Assembly (NCBI GenBank): GCA_030604405.1
Contig: JAUVVY010000021.1
Span: 1 to 64,000 of the forward strand
Direction: 5' to 3'
DNA: 64,000 nt
Source of the DNA: a bacterium
GTDB taxonomy: Bacteria > Armatimonadota > Zipacnadia > Zipacnadales > UBA11051
Shown: in pieces, positions 29,844 to 53,244 of the stretch
Position numbering within the stretch: position 1 is the first letter of the stretch
How the letters are laid out: each line of letters starts with the position of its first letter
Position numbers and translations under genes: made by a program
Notes under the pieces: generated by a model
Told to the model about the DNA's origin: nothing
Seen by the model: only the letters and a program-made list of their open reading frames with translations
Database searches by the model: none

Positions 29844-29937
29844 TCGCTGACTCAGGCAGGACTTGGTGCTGCTGCGGTGAAGCAATAGTTAAGACGATAC
29901 GTCGGCATCGCTAGTACCACGAATGGAGGTTGCTGAG

Positions 29938-31539
29938 ATGAGACGCATTCTTACGGTTCTGCTCGTTGTTGCTGTGGCACTGATGCTTGCCTTGCCGGCT
30001 GCGGCTCAGGACGATGAGCCACTGAGTCCGGAGGCGGTGGTGACAAAGCTGCGAGCGGCTTTCCTTACCGCATTCACCGGGACGACTGAAGAGAGCATGG
30101 AGGAAGCGTTTGAGCAGTTGGTTGTGACGCCAGAGGACGAGGGCGCAGGCGAAGGCGTGGGCACGTTTATTTTGTTTTACGCGATGCTGCTGGCCCCGCC
30201 TCCTGGCGAGCCGGCTGAGATAGATGGAGATACGGCCATAGTGAAGCTCCAGCCGGAGACCATCGAATTCGTGCTGGTCCAGCAAGACGGCCAGTGGAAG
30301 GTGGATATGGCCGCCACCTACGAGCGTATGCCGGAGAAGTTTCGGGAGGTCTTCCAGCCGGTGGTCGAGCGGTCTCGCGAGAAGGCCCGGCAGGTCGCCT
30401 GCCTGTCGAATCTGAAGCAGTTGGCCACCGGCGCGCTGATGTACGCGCAGGACCACGACGAGACTTTCCCCGATGCAGACGAGTGGATGGACCAGATAAT
30501 GCCATATATCAAGAATGAAGCGATCCTGAAGTGCCCGGCTGCGTCGGATTTGGAATATGGCTATGCCATGAACGCCGCGCTCAGCGGCATGGCTATGGAG
30601 GATGTTACCAGCTTGGCTTCGACGGTCATGTTCTTTGACTCAGACATCGGCACGCGCAACGCCGCCGGCGGCCCGGACGCGGCGTGCGACCCACCTCGCC
30701 ACAACGGCGGCAACAACTTCGCCTACACCGACGGGCATGCCAAGTGGGGTCGGGAAGTACCCTCATTTGCCTTGAAAGCCGACCTGGAGAAGGCCCGGCA
30801 GTCCAACTGCCTGTCGAATCTGAAGCAATTGGCCACCGGCGCGCTGATGTGCGCGCAGGACTACGACGAGGTTTTTCCCGATGCCGACAAGTGGATGGAC
30901 CAGATAATGCCATATATTAGGAATGAAGCGATCCTGAAGTGCCCGGGTGCGCCGGATTTGGAATATGGCTACGCCATGAACGCCGCGCTCAGCGGCATGG
31001 CTATGGAGGATGTTACCAGCTTGGCTTCGACGGTCATGTTCTTTGACTCAGACATCGGCACGCGCAACGCCGCCGGAGGGCCGGACGCGGTATGCGACCC
31101 GCCGCGGCACAACGGCGGCAACAATTACGCCTACACCGACGGACATGCCAAGTGGGGCCGGGAAGTACCCTCATTTGACCCGGAAGCTGACGGCGAAGAG
31201 CACGGGCAAGCCGACGCCGTGGTCGAGCTGAGCGATGATAGCTTTGAGGCGGAGGTTCTGAAGGTTGAGGGCTGGGTGCTGGTGGACTTCGGGGCCGACC
31301 GGTGCGATGCGTGCCGCGAGCTCAAGCCGGTTTTCCACGAGATGGCGAGGGAGTATGAGGGCCGCGTAAAGTTCGCTTCAGTAGATCTGGTCAAGTCTTC
31401 CAAAGCACAAGATGACTACGGCATACGCTACATTCCGACGGTGATCCTTTTCCGCGATGGCAAGCAAGTGGACAGGACGGTCGGCTTCGGCGGAGAGGAC
31501 GAGTTCCGAGCCTGGCTCGAAGGCAATCTGCAAGATTAG
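29938..31539 (+). CDS. Secreted protein: two pseudopilin-type H-X9-DG modules plus C-terminal thioredoxin domain
   Basis: About 533 residues. The ATG at 29938 has GGAGG 8 nt upstream and opens a signal peptide (LTVLLVVAVALMLALPAAAQ). Residues about 25-140 are a helical/beta region with no assignment. Two modules follow, starting CLSNLKQLATGALMYAQDHD and CLSNLKQLATGALMCAQDYD and each ending HNGGNN-[FY]-AYTDGHAKWG, the C-terminal module of Armatimonadota/Planctomycetota prepilin-like proteins, but without the prepilin N-terminal helix. Residues about 420-533 are a thioredoxin fold with an active site DRCDACREL (C-x-x-C), the cis-proline YIPTVILF and a terminal helix. A redox-active envelope protein is inferred. 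Confidence 0.85.
   Translation: MRRILTVLLVVAVALMLALPAAAQDDEPLSPEAVVTKLRAAFLTAFTGTTEESMEEAFEQLVVTPEDEGAGEGVGTFILFYAMLLAPPPGEPAEIDGDTAIVKLQPETIEFVLVQQDGQWKVDMAATYERMPEKFREVFQPVVERSREKARQVACLSNLKQLATGALMYAQDHDETFPDADEWMDQIMPYIKNEAILKCPAASDLEYGYAMNAALSGMAMEDVTSLASTVMFFDSDIGTRNAAGGPDAACDPPRHNGGNNFAYTDGHAKWGREVPSFALKADLEKARQSNCLSNLKQLATGALMCAQDYDEVFPDADKWMDQIMPYIRNEAILKCPGAPDLEYGYAMNAALSGMAMEDVTSLASTVMFFDSDIGTRNAAGGPDAVCDPPRHNGGNNYAYTDGHAKWGREVPSFDPEADGEEHGQADAVVELSDDSFEAEVLKVEGWVLVDFGADRCDACRELKPVFHEMAREYEGRVKFASVDLVKSSKAQDDYGIRYIPTVILFRDGKQVDRTVGFGGEDEFRAWLEGNLQD
30379..31177 (+). repeat. 408-bp spaced tandem duplication inside the thioredoxin-fusion gene
   Basis: Segments 30379-30769 and 30787-31177 (391 bp each, offset exactly 408 bp or 136 codons) are nearly identical at DNA level, including long runs with no change. 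This points to a recent duplication or continuing gene conversion. Confidence 0.93.
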
Positions 31540-39115: not shown

Positions 39116-39212
39116 GTGGGAAATTCGCCCTGTGACGAGTTTGTCTGGAAGGAACTCCACCGGTGAAGGGCTAAGTGTAGTCTAGCAAGCAACAGCAGAG
39201 GGGCGTGTGACT

Positions 39213-40634
39213 ATGCGAGAATTATGTGTGATAGTACTGATATTCGTTGTGATGGCCGGCACTGCGCGGGCGCAGCTTGATGTGGCGAAGCTGGCGGAGG
39301 CGCACAAGGCCGTCGACATGGCGCGCAATGACGGCAAAGGCCATTCGGATAAGGCGGACTCGGGAGCGCTGGGCTGGGGTGAGGGAGACATCATCCAGAA
39401 CTATGCTAGTATGTGGGAAGTGACCGAGGACACTTACTGGCTGAGCAAGATAGGCGAGCATTTTCACCGCATCATGGACAACGCTTCAGATCCTGACGGC
39501 GACGGTTATCTGAGCTGGCAGACCAAAAGGTACTCGTGTGCTGTGGCTTACGCCCATCGTCTGCATAATGTATCAGCGGCCCAGATCGCTCCGGAGCGCC
39601 AGAAGAACAGCAGCGGTGCGCAGGCCGCGAAGTGCAGCGGCCACACCTACATAATTGGGTTTCACGAAGGACCGGCGAAGTTCCGCATCATTGACTGGGA
39701 CACCCGGGAAGTTATCGCGGACGGAATTGAATACGAAGATGGCGCGACAATTGCACAGATTGAGCCGTTTGAGTTCAAGATTACGGGACAGACGCATCAG
39801 GGCGATCGCTTTATGGTCCGTACCATTGCCCAGGAGCCGATTGAATACGTCGTGCACCAGGGCATGTTCATCTATCCGGTGGCGCTGTTCATCGAAGCGG
39901 CCAGGTCCCGGCCGGAGCTGCGGGAACAGTTCGGGGCCGACGCGGAAGAATTCCTGGCCTTTATCAACAAGCATGTGTTCGAGAAGAATGAGCGCGACTG
40001 GCTGGACATGGACGAGCTGGGCGGCGGGTATCGTTTTGAGCCGAAGATTACCGACCGCATGCCCAACCGCATCATGGTGCACAACCAGTACGGGGCACTG
40101 GCACGGGCATGGCTGGTGCTGAGCGGTGTTGAAGGCGCTCATCCGCTGATGGCCACGCGAGCCGTGCGGATGGTGCGCTATTTTCACAATCACCTGGAGT
40201 TGGATGAGGAGCACAACGCTTACAGGTGGTATTCGGAGGACTACATCGAATACGGACAGCCGGGCCACAACGGCTGGGGAGGGCCGCGAGAGGACACCAG
40301 CCACGGTTCCCTTGATGTAAGCCTGGCAATAGAAGCAGCGCGCCGTGGCGTGGTATTTACCGACGAAGATATGGTGAGGATCGCAAACACATGGCTCAAG
40401 GTGATGTGGAATCAAGACGAAGAGGAGCCGCTGATGGCCAACCGCGTTGATGGTGCACAGCCCGGGAAGCATTCGGCACTGTTCCCGCGCTGGTCGGAGC
40501 TGTCGCAGTGGGACAGGAAGGTGTATGACCTGGCGCTGACGGCATTCCTTGCCAGAGATGAAGAGGGACAGGTGAATGCTGCTCCGATAATGCTATTGTG
40601 CGCGAAGCGTGCGGGCGTGGAGTTGCCGCAATGA
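39213..40634 (+). CDS. Secreted paralogue 1: probable alpha/alpha-barrel protein with inserted beta-module
   Basis: About 473 residues. The ATG at 39213 opens a 20-residue signal peptide (CVIVLIFVVMAGTARA, then QLDVAK). Helical segments with GWGEGDIIQNYASMWEVTED, an Asp-rich loop NASDPDGDGYLSW, and later VHNQYGALARAWLVL, EDTSHGSLDVSLAIEAARRG and DEDMVRIANTWLKVMW suggest an (alpha/alpha) toroid as in polysaccharide lyases and C5-epimerases. Residues about 145-220 are beta-rich (KFRIIDWDTREVIADGIEY then GQTHQGDRFMVRT), resembling a module of flagellar FlgK/FlgL. The conserved His/Asn/Gln and Asp-x-Ser-His-Gly residues are candidates for an active site. I do not recognise a named family. Confidence 0.7.
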   Translation: MRELCVIVLIFVVMAGTARAQLDVAKLAEAHKAVDMARNDGKGHSDKADSGALGWGEGDIIQNYASMWEVTEDTYWLSKIGEHFHRIMDNASDPDGDGYLSWQTKRYSCAVAYAHRLHNVSAAQIAPERQKNSSGAQAAKCSGHTYIIGFHEGPAKFRIIDWDTREVIADGIEYEDGATIAQIEPFEFKITGQTHQGDRFMVRTIAQEPIEYVVHQGMFIYPVALFIEAARSRPELREQFGADAEEFLAFINKHVFEKNERDWLDMDELGGGYRFEPKITDRMPNRIMVHNQYGALARAWLVLSGVEGAHPLMATRAVRMVRYFHNHLELDEEHNAYRWYSEDYIEYGQPGHNGWGGPREDTSHGSLDVSLAIEAARRGVVFTDEDMVRIANTWLKVMWNQDEEEPLMANRVDGAQPGKHSALFPRWSELSQWDRKVYDLALTAFLARDEEGQVNAAPIMLLCAKRAGVELPQ

Positions 40635-40680
40635 GTAAAGACGCTGGCAGCCACAAACAACTACGTGGAGGTGTGTGAGT

Positions 40681-42090
40681 ATGCGAGAATTATGTGTGAT
40701 AGTACTGATATTCGTTGTGATGACCGGCACTGCGCGGGCGCAGCTTGATGTGGCGAAATTGGCGGAGGCGCACAAGGCCTTCGACATGGCGCGCAATGAG
40801 GGCAAAGGCAATTCGGATAGCGCGAACTCGGGAAGTCTGGGCTGGGGCGAGGGCGGCATCATCAACGCCTACGCCCAACTATGGGAGGTAACCGAAGACA
40901 CTTACTGGCTCGAGAAGATAAGCGATCACTTCCATCGGATCATGGGCAACGCCTCTGATCCCGACGGTGACGGGTATCTGAGCTGGCAGACCCCGGGTTA
41001 TTCGTGCGCGGTGGCCTGGACCGAACGGTTGCACAATGTGTCAGCAGCCGAGATAACGCCTGCCTACCAGAAGAACACAAGTGGGCAGGCAGCCGCCAAG
41101 TGTACCGGCCATGCTTACATGATTGAGTTTCACGAAGCTGCCGACAAATTCCGTATCCGTGACTGCAATACTCACGAAGTGGTGGCGGATGGCGTGGAGT
41201 ACCAGGGCAAGGCGACCATCACCCAGATTGAGCCCTTCAAGCTGACGATCAGCGGGGAGGCGCACCAGGGCGACCGCTTCTTAGTTCGCACGGCCGGGCC
41301 TGAGGGTATCGAGTACACAGTGCACCAGGGCATGTTCGTCCATCCTGTCGCGAAGTTCATTGAGGCGGTTAAGACCCGGCCGGAGTTGCAGGAGCAGTTC
41401 GGCGCCGATGCCGATGAATTCCTGGCCTTCATCAACAAGCACCTGTTCGAGAAAAACGAGCGGGACTGGCTGGACATGGGCGAGCTCGGCGGGGGATACC
41501 GTTTCGAGCCGAAGGTCACCGACCGCTTTCCCAACCGGATCATGCCACACAACCAGTATGGCGCGCTGGCGCGGGCGTGGCTGGTGCTCAAAGACGTTGA
41601 AGGAGCCCACCCGCTGATGGCTCAACGTGCGGAACAGATGGCGCGCTATTTCCACAGCTACCTGGAGTTGGATGAGGAGAATGATGCTTACGGGTGGCAT
41701 TACTGGGACTGGACCGAATACGGTGAGCCGGGGAATTCCGGCTCGGAGGACACCAGCCACGGGCACATAGATGTGAGCCTGGCGGTAGAAGCAGCGCGGC
41801 GGGGCGTGGTATTCACCGACGAGGACATGGTGCGGATAGCCAACACCTGGCTGAAGGTGATGTGGAACAAGGACGAGGACAACCCGCTGATGGCAGCAGG
41901 CGTGGACGGGCGCGAGCCATACAAGTTCTCATCGCTGCTGGTGTCCTGGTCGGAGTTGTCACAGTGGGACAAGCAAGTGTATGACCTGGCGCTGAAGGCC
42001 TTCCTGACCAAGGACGAAGAACAGCAGGCACGCTGGGCCCCGGCGATGCTGCTTTGCGCCAAGCGGGCCGGGGTGGAACTGCCGCAATAG
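40681..42090 (+). CDS. Secreted paralogue 2
   Basis: About 469 residues; GGAGGTG lies 7 nt before the ATG at 40681. The signal peptide and the first 35 codons are nearly identical in DNA to paralogue 1. It keeps all shared motifs: NASDPDGDGYLSW, GEAHQGDRFLVRT in the beta-module, PHNQYGALARAWLVL, EDTSHGHIDVSLAVEAARRG and ANTWLKVMW. The Trp/Tyr-rich segment before EDTSHG is WHYWDWTEYGEPGNSG. It starts 46 bp after paralogue 1 and presumably shares its transcript. Function as for paralogue 1: unknown, probably glycan-directed. Confidence 0.7.
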   Translation: MRELCVIVLIFVVMTGTARAQLDVAKLAEAHKAFDMARNEGKGNSDSANSGSLGWGEGGIINAYAQLWEVTEDTYWLEKISDHFHRIMGNASDPDGDGYLSWQTPGYSCAVAWTERLHNVSAAEITPAYQKNTSGQAAAKCTGHAYMIEFHEAADKFRIRDCNTHEVVADGVEYQGKATITQIEPFKLTISGEAHQGDRFLVRTAGPEGIEYTVHQGMFVHPVAKFIEAVKTRPELQEQFGADADEFLAFINKHLFEKNERDWLDMGELGGGYRFEPKVTDRFPNRIMPHNQYGALARAWLVLKDVEGAHPLMAQRAEQMARYFHSYLELDEENDAYGWHYWDWTEYGEPGNSGSEDTSHGHIDVSLAVEAARRGVVFTDEDMVRIANTWLKVMWNKDEDNPLMAAGVDGREPYKFSSLLVSWSELSQWDKQVYDLALKAFLTKDEEQQARWAPAMLLCAKRAGVELPQ

Positions 42091-45390: not shown

Positions 45391-45975
45391 ATGCAAATGC
45401 AGGACCAGTCGCAGACATCGGAACCAACCAAGGAATGCTATCGGTGCGGCAGGCAGTTGCCTGCCGACGCCAAGACGTGCCCTGTATGCGGCAGGAGACA
45501 GTACCGGATTTGCTATTGCGGCAACCGGATTCCGGTCAATACAGCGGAGTGTCCGCACTGTGGTGCCGACTGGTCGGACAGCACGCGCGTCAAGCGCAAG
45601 AAAAGCCGGTCGAGCAGGCTCAATTCGGCGGCACTGCTCAGAAGCGCCGGAATAGGGGCCGTAATAGCTCTGGTCATTGCAGGACTTTTCAACATTTTCA
45701 TCACTTATTTTGCGACAATCGGTGTGCAGGGCGAGGCTCTTCCTGATGACTTTTTTGGCCTATTGGATATGGCATCGGTGGGGCTCAGACGCGTTGCCGC
45801 GGCTTGGTGGCAAGCCGCGCTCACTCGCCGTGGCAGCATTCTGGCATTTGCCATTTGTCTAGCTGTGGGTGCGGGCATCGGGGCAGTGGCTTCTCTGGCG
45901 AAGGTCGCGACGCGGAAATTAGGCAGGCGCAGCAAAAGAGGAAGCAGTCGCCGGCGCAGCTCTCGCAGCAAGTGA
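45391..45975 (+). CDS. Double zinc-ribbon membrane protein, unknown
   Basis: About 194 residues. The N-terminus has zinc-ribbon cysteines: CYRCGRQLPADAKTCPVCGR and CYCGNRIPVNTAECPHCGAD (C-x-x-C pairs, one slightly irregular). A basic linker (RVKRKKSRSS), two hydrophobic segments (SAGIGAVIALVIAGLFNIFI about 86-105 and LAFAICLAVGAGIGAVASL about 150-168) and a very basic tail (RKLGRRSKRGSSRRRSSRSK) follow. It lies between the glycosyltransferase and the exosortase gene in the same direction. The role is unknown; the ribbons should be cytoplasmic. Confidence 0.72.
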   Translation: MQMQDQSQTSEPTKECYRCGRQLPADAKTCPVCGRRQYRICYCGNRIPVNTAECPHCGADWSDSTRVKRKKSRSSRLNSAALLRSAGIGAVIALVIAGLFNIFITYFATIGVQGEALPDDFFGLLDMASVGLRRVAAAWWQAALTRRGSILAFAICLAVGAGIGAVASLAKVATRKLGRRSKRGSSRRRSSRSK

Positions 45976-46000: not shown

Positions 46001-46882
46001 ATGACACCAACAACGGACACAGCGGCAGATCCCGCAAGCGGCGAAGAAAATGGCAAGCCGACTCTCTGGCCGCTGGCGGTGGTAATTGCCCTGGTGTTGG
46101 TGGTCTTTTGGGATAACCTCCACTGGCTGGTGCGTACCTGGTCTGCCGACGAATTCTACAACCACGGCTTTCTCATCCCCATCATCAGCGGCTACCTGAT
46201 ATACCGCAAATGGGATCACCTCAAGCAGTTGCCGCGTGTGAACTTCTACGGTGGCATTGCAGTGATACTCGCCGCAGTGTCGTTGCACCTGGTGGCAACC
46301 TATCTGGATGTTCACTTTCCCTCCACCTTTGCGCTGATCGGAGTAATGACCGGGCTGGTGTGGTGGCTGTGGGGCTGGCAGGCTCTGAAGGAAATTGCAT
46401 TTCCGCTGCTGTTTCTGGTTTTCATGGTGCCACTGGGCAAACTGTTGATTGACCAGGTGGCGCAGCCGATGCAGCTATTGGGTGCGAAGCTAGCGGGCGG
46501 GGCGGCGCAATTTCTGGGCATGCCTGCGACCATTGACGGGATTTCGCTGCGAACTCCTGAATACAGCTTCGAAGTCGCGCTAGCCTGCAGCGGGTTGAAA
46601 TCGGCGATAGCTATGCTGGCTCTCGGCGCCTTGCTGGCCTACCTGGTCAGGGGCGTCTGGTGGAAGAAGGTGCTGATCCTTGTCGCATCGCTGCCGACGG
46701 CGATACTGGCCAACGCGATGCGGATCTGGCTGACGCTGGTGCTGGGCCGCGCGCTGGGCGAGAAGGCAGCCGAGGGTTTCTTTCACACTTTCTCGGGCAT
46801 GTTGGTTTTCCTACTGGCGTTCCTCGGGCTATTTGGGGTGACAAGCTTACTGAGATGCACGCAGCTACGCGAAGATATCTAG
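46001..46882 (+). CDS. Exosortase (EpsH-family transpeptidase)
   Basis: 293 residues with about eight membrane segments. The exosortase catalytic residues are all present: Cys196 in ALACSGLKS, Arg241 in PTAILANAMRIW and His262 in FFHTFSGMLVF. The N-terminal part has YNHGFLIPIISGYLIYR, typical of the family. Exosortases cleave C-terminal PEP-CTERM-type sorting signals of exported proteins, usually in genomes that make exopolysaccharide. It overlaps the EpsI-like gene by 28 bp. No protein in this window ends in a recognisable PEP-CTERM signal. Confidence 0.92.
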   Translation: MTPTTDTAADPASGEENGKPTLWPLAVVIALVLVVFWDNLHWLVRTWSADEFYNHGFLIPIISGYLIYRKWDHLKQLPRVNFYGGIAVILAAVSLHLVATYLDVHFPSTFALIGVMTGLVWWLWGWQALKEIAFPLLFLVFMVPLGKLLIDQVAQPMQLLGAKLAGGAAQFLGMPATIDGISLRTPEYSFEVALACSGLKSAIAMLALGALLAYLVRGVWWKKVLILVASLPTAILANAMRIWLTLVLGRALGEKAAEGFFHTFSGMLVFLLAFLGLFGVTSLLRCTQLREDI

Positions 46883-52487: not shown

Positions 52488-52568
52488 CCGTAGTTCGGGT
52501 ATGCCTAGTATAGTCCCGTGGGTCGGGCATCCCTAATATAGTCCCGTAGGTCGGGCATCCTGCCCGAC
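52488..52568. repeat. Dispersed hairpin repeat, three tandem 28-bp copies
   Basis: Units at 52488-52515, 52516-52543 and 52544-52568 share ccgt-[ag]-g-gtcgggcat. The last ends in the complete palindrome GTCGGGCATCCTGCCCGAC (52550-52568). The first two are partly decayed. A further degenerate piece (cctcgggcttcccc) lies near 52467. Confidence 0.72.
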
Positions 52569-52590
52569 TCCGTTGTCATTCGGAGCGCGT

Positions 52591-53244
52591 ATGCCAAGAC
52601 GCGGCTTCACACTCATAGAGTTGCTGGTCGTCATCGCCATTATTGCGATCCTGGCCGCGATTCTGTTTCCGGTGTTCTCGCGGGCGCGGGAGGCGGCTCG
52701 CAAGACGAGTTGTGCGTCGAATCTGCGCCAGCTTGGTCTCGCCAGCCACATGTACGCACAGGACCACGACGAGTTGCTGCCTTGCGACTATTACGCCTGC
52801 AACAGCAGCACCACTCATGCTCGGCTGGTGGGGCAGATTCTGCCATACATCAACAACACGCAAATCATGTACTGCCCCTCGGCCTGTAGAATACAAACGT
52901 GGGTGCCGGAGATCGTGGGTACAGAGGCCAACATCGCGGCCGGCAACATCGGCTATTACTGCTTCAGCTATGACCGAGCGCCCAGCACTGTAACCCCGCC
53001 GAAACCCAGCTACAGCACCTGGATTAGCTGGGCCTTTCTGATCAAGCGGACCGGTGACACGCCTCGGATCATGAGCGAGCAGTGGGACAGCGACTGCTGG
53101 CTGTGGTCGGACCCCTGGTGCAAGCTGACGCGCGTAGATCACGGTGTTACGTTACATGGCTCTCACGCGTGCTCTATCAACATCTGCTACCTCGACGGCC
53201 ACGTGAAGTTCCAGCCGACGCCGGCGAAGCTTGTATTCAAGTAG
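52591..53244 (+). CDS. Prepilin-like protein with H-X9-DG C-terminal module
   Basis: About 217 residues, from [20 protein letters not shown]: a type IV prepilin leader with cleavage between G and F, and the conserved Glu5 of the mature N-terminal helix. The helix runs into [20 protein letters not shown] and [15 protein letters not shown], the usual Armatimonadota/Planctomycetota type. The C-terminus has [20 protein letters not shown], a variant of the H-x9-DG motif. It should be cleaved by a prepilin peptidase and inserted by a type II secretion/type IV pilus-like system, whose genes are not here. GGAG lies 8 nt before the ATG at 52591. Confidence 0.93.

Follow-up and report, generated by a model that had tools for sequence, protein, structure and literature searches.

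A conserved fusion of H-X9-DG modules with a thioredoxin domain in Armatimonadota

The gene at positions 29938..31539 (+) of the window, the 64,000-nucleotide stretch of DNA analysed here, combines an export signal, an N-terminal domain, two tandem H-X9-DG modules, and a C-terminal thioredoxin domain. The H-X9-DG domain is usually carried by pilus-like proteins, and thioredoxins are enzymes that form or cleave disulphide bonds. The domains are known, and their conserved combination is new, as compared within Armatimonadota and the literature that was found; literature searches of incomplete coverage returned no report joining H-X9-DG/SBP_bac_10 with thioredoxin. In the order to which the source organism belongs, good evidence points to thioredoxin and H-X9-DG proteins acting together. 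The most likely mechanism, put forward tentatively, is that the protein is exported and carries out thiol-disulphide exchange specifically for H-X9-DG proteins.

The gene is a single uninterrupted frame of 533 codons, running from ATG 29938 to the TAG at 31537-31539. The frameshift or faulty assembly join between modules and thioredoxin, against which the preliminary description had cautioned, is absent. An alternative in-frame ATG at 29923 gives a 538-residue reading. Matches found in promoter and terminator scans were no commoner than in shuffled sequences. The genome of the window, referred to as G000, comes from a marine-sediment bacterium and is 97% complete and assembled in 96 contigs; its nearest relative is G001. 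The preliminary description placed the gene, modules and thioredoxin correctly but overlooked that a further domain, some 110 residues long, separates the signal peptide from the first module. The features of the gene are as follows:

29925..29929 (+): Shine-Dalgarno-like GGAGG, 8 bases before ATG 29938 (sequence)
29938..31539 (+): whole gene, comprising signal peptide, N-domain, two H-X9-DG modules and thioredoxin (single open frame, GGAGG upstream; all domains have dN/dS below 1 when compared with the G001 orthologue)
29938..30009 (+): Sec-type signal peptide MRRILTVLLVVAVALMLALPAAAQ, residues 1-24 (sequence, hydropathy 2.68)
30025..30342 (+): N-terminal alpha+beta domain, residues ~30-135, putatively NTF2-like, motif DGQWKVDMAAT (kept in homologues; AF2 model)
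30382..30789 (+): H-X9-DG module 1, residues 149-284 (Pfam, NCBIfam, sequence; AF2 pLDDT 96.7)
30700..30735 (+): H-X9-DG motif 1 HNGGNNFAYTDG (sequence)
30790..31197 (+): H-X9-DG module 2, residues 285-420, tandem copy of module 1 (408-bp shift, 92.8% DNA identity; sister in tree, 100/96)
31108..31143 (+): H-X9-DG motif 2 HNGGNNYAYTDG (sequence)
31225..31536 (+): thioredoxin domain, residues 430-533 (Pfam E 6.9e-22; Foldseek to E. coli thioredoxin)
31303..31314 (+): active-site CDAC, residues 456-459, preceded by Arg instead of Trp (sequence, alignment)
31435..31437 (+): cis-Pro position P500 (YIPT), opposite the active site (sequence, alignment)

The signal peptide region contains neither a prepilin motif nor a lipobox in its sequence, and N_methyl is absent from the Pfam matches. 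The protein thus lacks the combination of N_methyl motif and hydrophobic N-terminal helix that defines type IV pilins and pseudopilins. The 22 residues just upstream of module 1 have a hydropathy of -1.31, whereas the same place in a true prepilin (52537-53241) has +1.93. The latter is a genuine H-X9-DG prepilin encoded on the forward strand of the same window. The signal peptide was initially described as replacing the prepilin helix; however, only the hydrophobic half of the helix is gone, and each module retains the polar half. Without the half of the pilin helix that inserts into the membrane, the protein, as judged from its sequence, cannot act as an ordinary filament subunit.

The H-X9-DG motifs are positioned at residues 255 and 391, which agrees with the exact spacing of 136 codons reported initially. 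The NCBIfam model TIGR04294 (pre_pil_HX9DG) matches two stretches of the protein above its cut-off (29.5 vs 19 bits), and PF07596/DUF1559 (SBP_bac_10) reaches 30.2 bits against a cut-off of 23.3 on only 33 residues of its 268-position profile. The modules share with other H-X9-DG/DUF1559 pseudopilin-like proteins (SBP_bac_10, PF07596; TIGR04294) the polar part of the pilin helix with CLSNLKQ, followed by W, PY, CP, GYA.N, and RHN..N.AY.DGH. In contrast to those proteins, the one described here has no N_methyl segment, carries a signal peptide and an N-domain in front, has the module doubled, and ends with a thioredoxin.

The two module copies form a DNA repeat (30379-30769 and 30787-31177) with a shift of 408 bp, a length of 391 bp, and an identity of 92.8%. 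They differ at 28 positions, with 13 synonymous and 11 replacement codons. The dS between modules 1 and 2 is 0.18, compared to approximately 1.0 to G001, which has one module, and the module tree groups the two copies as sisters (100/96), beside G001. The low dS and the sister placement indicate a recent in-frame tandem duplication unique to G000. The duplication noticed in the preliminary description is therefore real, but it is private to this genome and lies outside the conserved design. Relative to G001, both evolve under constraint (dN/dS 0.14-0.17). The modules have 104 consecutive identical bases in common (30565-30668 and 30973-31076) and differ by about 10% in the remainder; it is possible that the identical run results from gene conversion.

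The AF2 model of the module (ma7e786d4aff1, window 30373-30780) has a pLDDT of 96.7. Its comparison with the PDB gave no significant match: the best hit had an E-value of 3.3, and a Myxococcus pilus structure was matched with E 9.9 over 40 columns. A search of solved structures with the sequence profile of the module gave no match either. The structure comparison thus provided no significant pilin-fold match for the module, and the modelled fold appears to be without a solved representative. The AF2 model of the whole protein has a pLDDT of 81.7 and a pTM of 0.60, and the relative placement of the domains is therefore unreliable.

The N-terminal domain of approximately 110 residues consists in the AF2 model of helices followed by strands. 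Comparison with NTF2-like Pfam families gave no confident match, only weak ones such as DUF5105 (E 0.048, in two of 11 members). Its motif and strand order, rather than a database match, suggest that the domain is NTF2-like. It evolves under looser constraint (dN/dS against G001 of 0.48) than the modules or the thioredoxin (0.25).

The C-terminal domain has the score, fold, CxxC, and cis-Pro of the PF00085 family, and the thioredoxin with a CDAC active site recognised at first sight is confirmed. The Pfam match spans residues 433-532 of the 538-residue reading (E 6.9e-22, 77.9 bits, cut-off 23.5), and Foldseek aligns the domain with E. coli thioredoxin with E 7.5e-12 and a target TM-score of 0.94. 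Like thioredoxins (PF00085) and the envelope Dsb and TlpA/ResA types, the domain combines the thioredoxin fold with CxxC, cis-Pro, and predicted export. It differs from them in scoring below the cut-off of the TrxA equivalog TIGR01068 (75.5 vs 96.8 bits), in the Arg before CDAC, in its fusion to H-X9-DG modules, and in the lack of a DsbD/CcdA partner among the proteins searched. The CDAC motif is without the usual preceding Trp and the usual Pro within. Among 18 family or adjacent thioredoxins, 14 retain CxxC; the motif is lost in G003, where the thioredoxin is fused, and in G018, G021, and G008. The fold and the cis-Pro motif are retained where CxxC is lost.

Searches for redox partners returned no DsbD_TM in G000, G001, and G004, although CxxC is intact in all three, no VKOR among 41 genomes, and neither DsbB nor DsbD_2 across the genus (five genomes). 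The envelope thiol chemistry of G000 and its genus has no recognised partner among the DsbD, VKOR, and DsbB families.

A profile of the one-module fusion was searched against 291 Armatimonadota genomes. The fusion is present in seven of them, namely the five members of the genus and two from another family, G018 and G026. Homologues with the same architecture, whose absence would have spoken against the preliminary description, thus exist in six other genomes. All six have the one-module form; in the G026 fusion, the N-domain is doubled instead of the module. A 457-residue frame (G253:C13) considered as a further fusion was rejected, as it has no H-X9-DG module inside. In the module tree, ten modules of the N-domain family form one clade (98/87), with the modules of G037 and G038 outside it, and the family's thioredoxins branch apart from ordinary ones (77/90). 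The fusion appears to be ancient within the order, some lineages having lost or split it later. The class Zipacnadia has been described from anoxic sediments (PMC10290634).

Unfused forms of the family remain close to thioredoxin genes. In G013, a gene for N-domain and H-X9-DG module is followed by a gene for N-domain and thioredoxin. The order in G024 is N-domain with thioredoxin, N-domain with a degenerate H-X9-DG module, and a thioredoxin without a signal peptide. A lipoprotein-type thioredoxin is encoded two genes upstream of the N-domain/H-X9-DG gene in G037 and one gene upstream in G038. In G003, an exported thioredoxin with CPPC is positioned just upstream of the fused gene whose CxxC is lost. 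A thioredoxin lies within 1.5 kb of four of the five unfused N-domain/H-X9-DG genes, compared to none of 61 other H-X9-DG loci; the exception is the unfused gene of G024:C89, which has no thioredoxin nearby. Because the four positive genes come from two genera, they count as about two independent cases. Chance adjacency was rejected against the 61 control loci, with positives from these two genera.

At a separate prfB locus of G008, G021, G032, G037, and G039, a paralogous gene for N-domain and thioredoxin directly follows the gene of a true (N_methyl) H-X9-DG prepilin; the G039 copy is cut by the contig end. The corresponding gene of G018 contains an H-X9-DG module and is separated from the prepilin by one small gene. 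The prepilins adjoining the CxxC-less thioredoxins of G021 and G008 keep their cysteines. The fused or adjacent pairing in several lineages indicates that the association is unlikely to be accidental. The preliminary idea of redox activity brought to an envelope assembly gains partial support from this pairing, its redox element being more speculative in view of the four CxxC losses and the missing partner families. The remaining neighbours were rejected as a guide to function: S9/esterase genes are upstream in G000, G001, and G004, and CN_hydrolase is downstream in G000, G002, and G003, neither being common to all genomes.

The cysteines of the modules, located in CLSN and CP, are nearly invariant (64/76 and 73/76, respectively); in the present protein they are C155 and C199 of module 1 and C291 and C335 of module 2. 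All three modules without the second cysteine are also without the first (Fisher p 0.004 for modules with both sites readable, uncorrected for kinship), and in G018 the CxxC and both module cysteines were lost together. This co-variation and the joint loss fit exchange on the module or on similar pseudopilins. However, the G037 and G038 modules lack the first cysteine although the neighbouring thioredoxin is intact, which counts against a redox reading. So do the four CxxC losses, two of them (G021 and G008) beside prepilins with intact cysteines, the missing redox partners, the atypical CDAC, and the lack of a nearby thioredoxin at G024:C89.

In the mechanism that we propose, members of the family would be exported, soluble envelope proteins built of an NTF2-like N-domain, an H-X9-DG module, and a thioredoxin. 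The module is most likely the docking or substrate part. The thioredoxin may exchange disulphides with the conserved pair of cysteines in H-X9-DG proteins, acting in cis and probably also in trans on the many H-X9-DG pseudopilins of the genome. The disulphide and substrate assumed in this scheme, and the direction of the reaction, go beyond the observed architecture, export signal, conservation, and association. G000 has T2SSF, prepilin peptidase, and secretins, and 36 PF07596 matches. The duplication in G000 would provide two docking or substrate units per thioredoxin. A narrower proposal, which is possible but on the unlikely side, is that of a specialised redox chaperone or isomerase acting on H-X9-DG pseudopilins, in which the domesticated soluble module would recognise the fold and the attached or neighbouring thioredoxin would handle the cysteine pair.

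The main rival, itself an unlikely one, gives the thioredoxin domain a non-redox role, in which its substrate groove would bind H-X9-DG proteins as part of an exported chaperone or scaffold, with CxxC optional. The loss of CxxC from several lineages that keep the fold and the cis-Pro motif is consistent with such a holdase, as are the atypical CDAC and the absence from G000 of a known electron supply to the envelope among the DsbD, DsbB, and VKOR families. Retention of CxxC in most members argues in the opposite direction, as does the intact thioredoxin next to the G003 gene that has lost the motif. It is rather improbable that the module has no link to pili and is a ligand-binding or structural domain of general use outside the cytoplasm, the protein then being an envelope redox-defence or surface protein. 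The promiscuity of the module in the phylum, where it is found behind zinc ribbons, an anti-sigma-like zinc finger, and N-domains, and in arrays, agrees with that reading; a study of R. baltica describes PF07596 as a family of solute-binding proteins (PMC2754498), and T. immobilis has signal-peptide/SBP_bac_10 proteins without the prepilin motif (PMC8567305). It leaves unexplained, however, why this H-X9-DG subfamily, and also an N_methyl pseudopilin gene, should be paired with thioredoxin.

Neutral accretion, by which the domains would travel together through paralogy and fusion with no joint function, is improbable: the domain make-up changes fast, with the module lost or doubled and the N-domain doubled in G026, and the whole family is restricted to one order, but all domains are under purifying selection and were repeatedly kept as neighbours after splitting. 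There is very little chance that the second module or the module-thioredoxin junction is a mis-join. The fragmentation of the assembly and the 104 identical bases could point to one, whereas the 28 differences between the copies and a linker between them that matches neither parent exactly make an assembly fault unlikely; furthermore, the frame is kept, and the module-thioredoxin junction recurs in the six other genomes. Exchange on H-X9-DG proteins remains the preferred, tentative mechanism.

To our knowledge, the H-X9-DG/DUF1559 proteins have no established function. Few families have expanded as much in Planctomycetes and related phyla (PMC10632474, PMC8567305). P. limnophila has 68 paralogues, two of which are essential (PMC10632474), R. 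baltica has 74 such proteins (PMC2754498), and T. immobilis has 91 proteins with both prepilin and SBP_bac_10 domains, alongside a few that carry a signal peptide and lack the prepilin motif (PMC8567305). The Sec/SPI + SBP_bac_10 proteins of Tuwongella immobilis resemble the protein described here in having a signal peptide instead of a prepilin motif; thioredoxin is unmentioned there (PMC8567305) and present here.

The H-X9-DG module is promiscuous in this order. In L022 (G000:C9, 811-2235 (-)), L013, and L021, modules are fused either behind a zinc finger that is anti-sigma-like and carries a transmembrane helix, or behind zinc ribbons followed by a pilin-like helix. L016 (G014:C397, 397-2619) and L102 (G009:C322) are exported and carry several degenerate modules in a row behind an N-domain, indicating that module arrays arose more than once. 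Elsewhere in the window, two adjacent exported paralogues (39207-42087 (+)) are 75% identical over 475 residues and have no Pfam match, and an exosortase gene (46001-46879 (+); PF09721, E 7.4e-71) is preceded by a zinc-ribbon protein gene (45391-45972).

The H-X9-DG module is able to leave the pilin context altogether. Its conserved thioredoxin partner, fused or adjacent, provides a concrete and testable lead to the biogenesis or chemistry of H-X9-DG/DUF1559 proteins. If the proposal of a redox chaperone were true, it would offer the first handle on the function of this large class.
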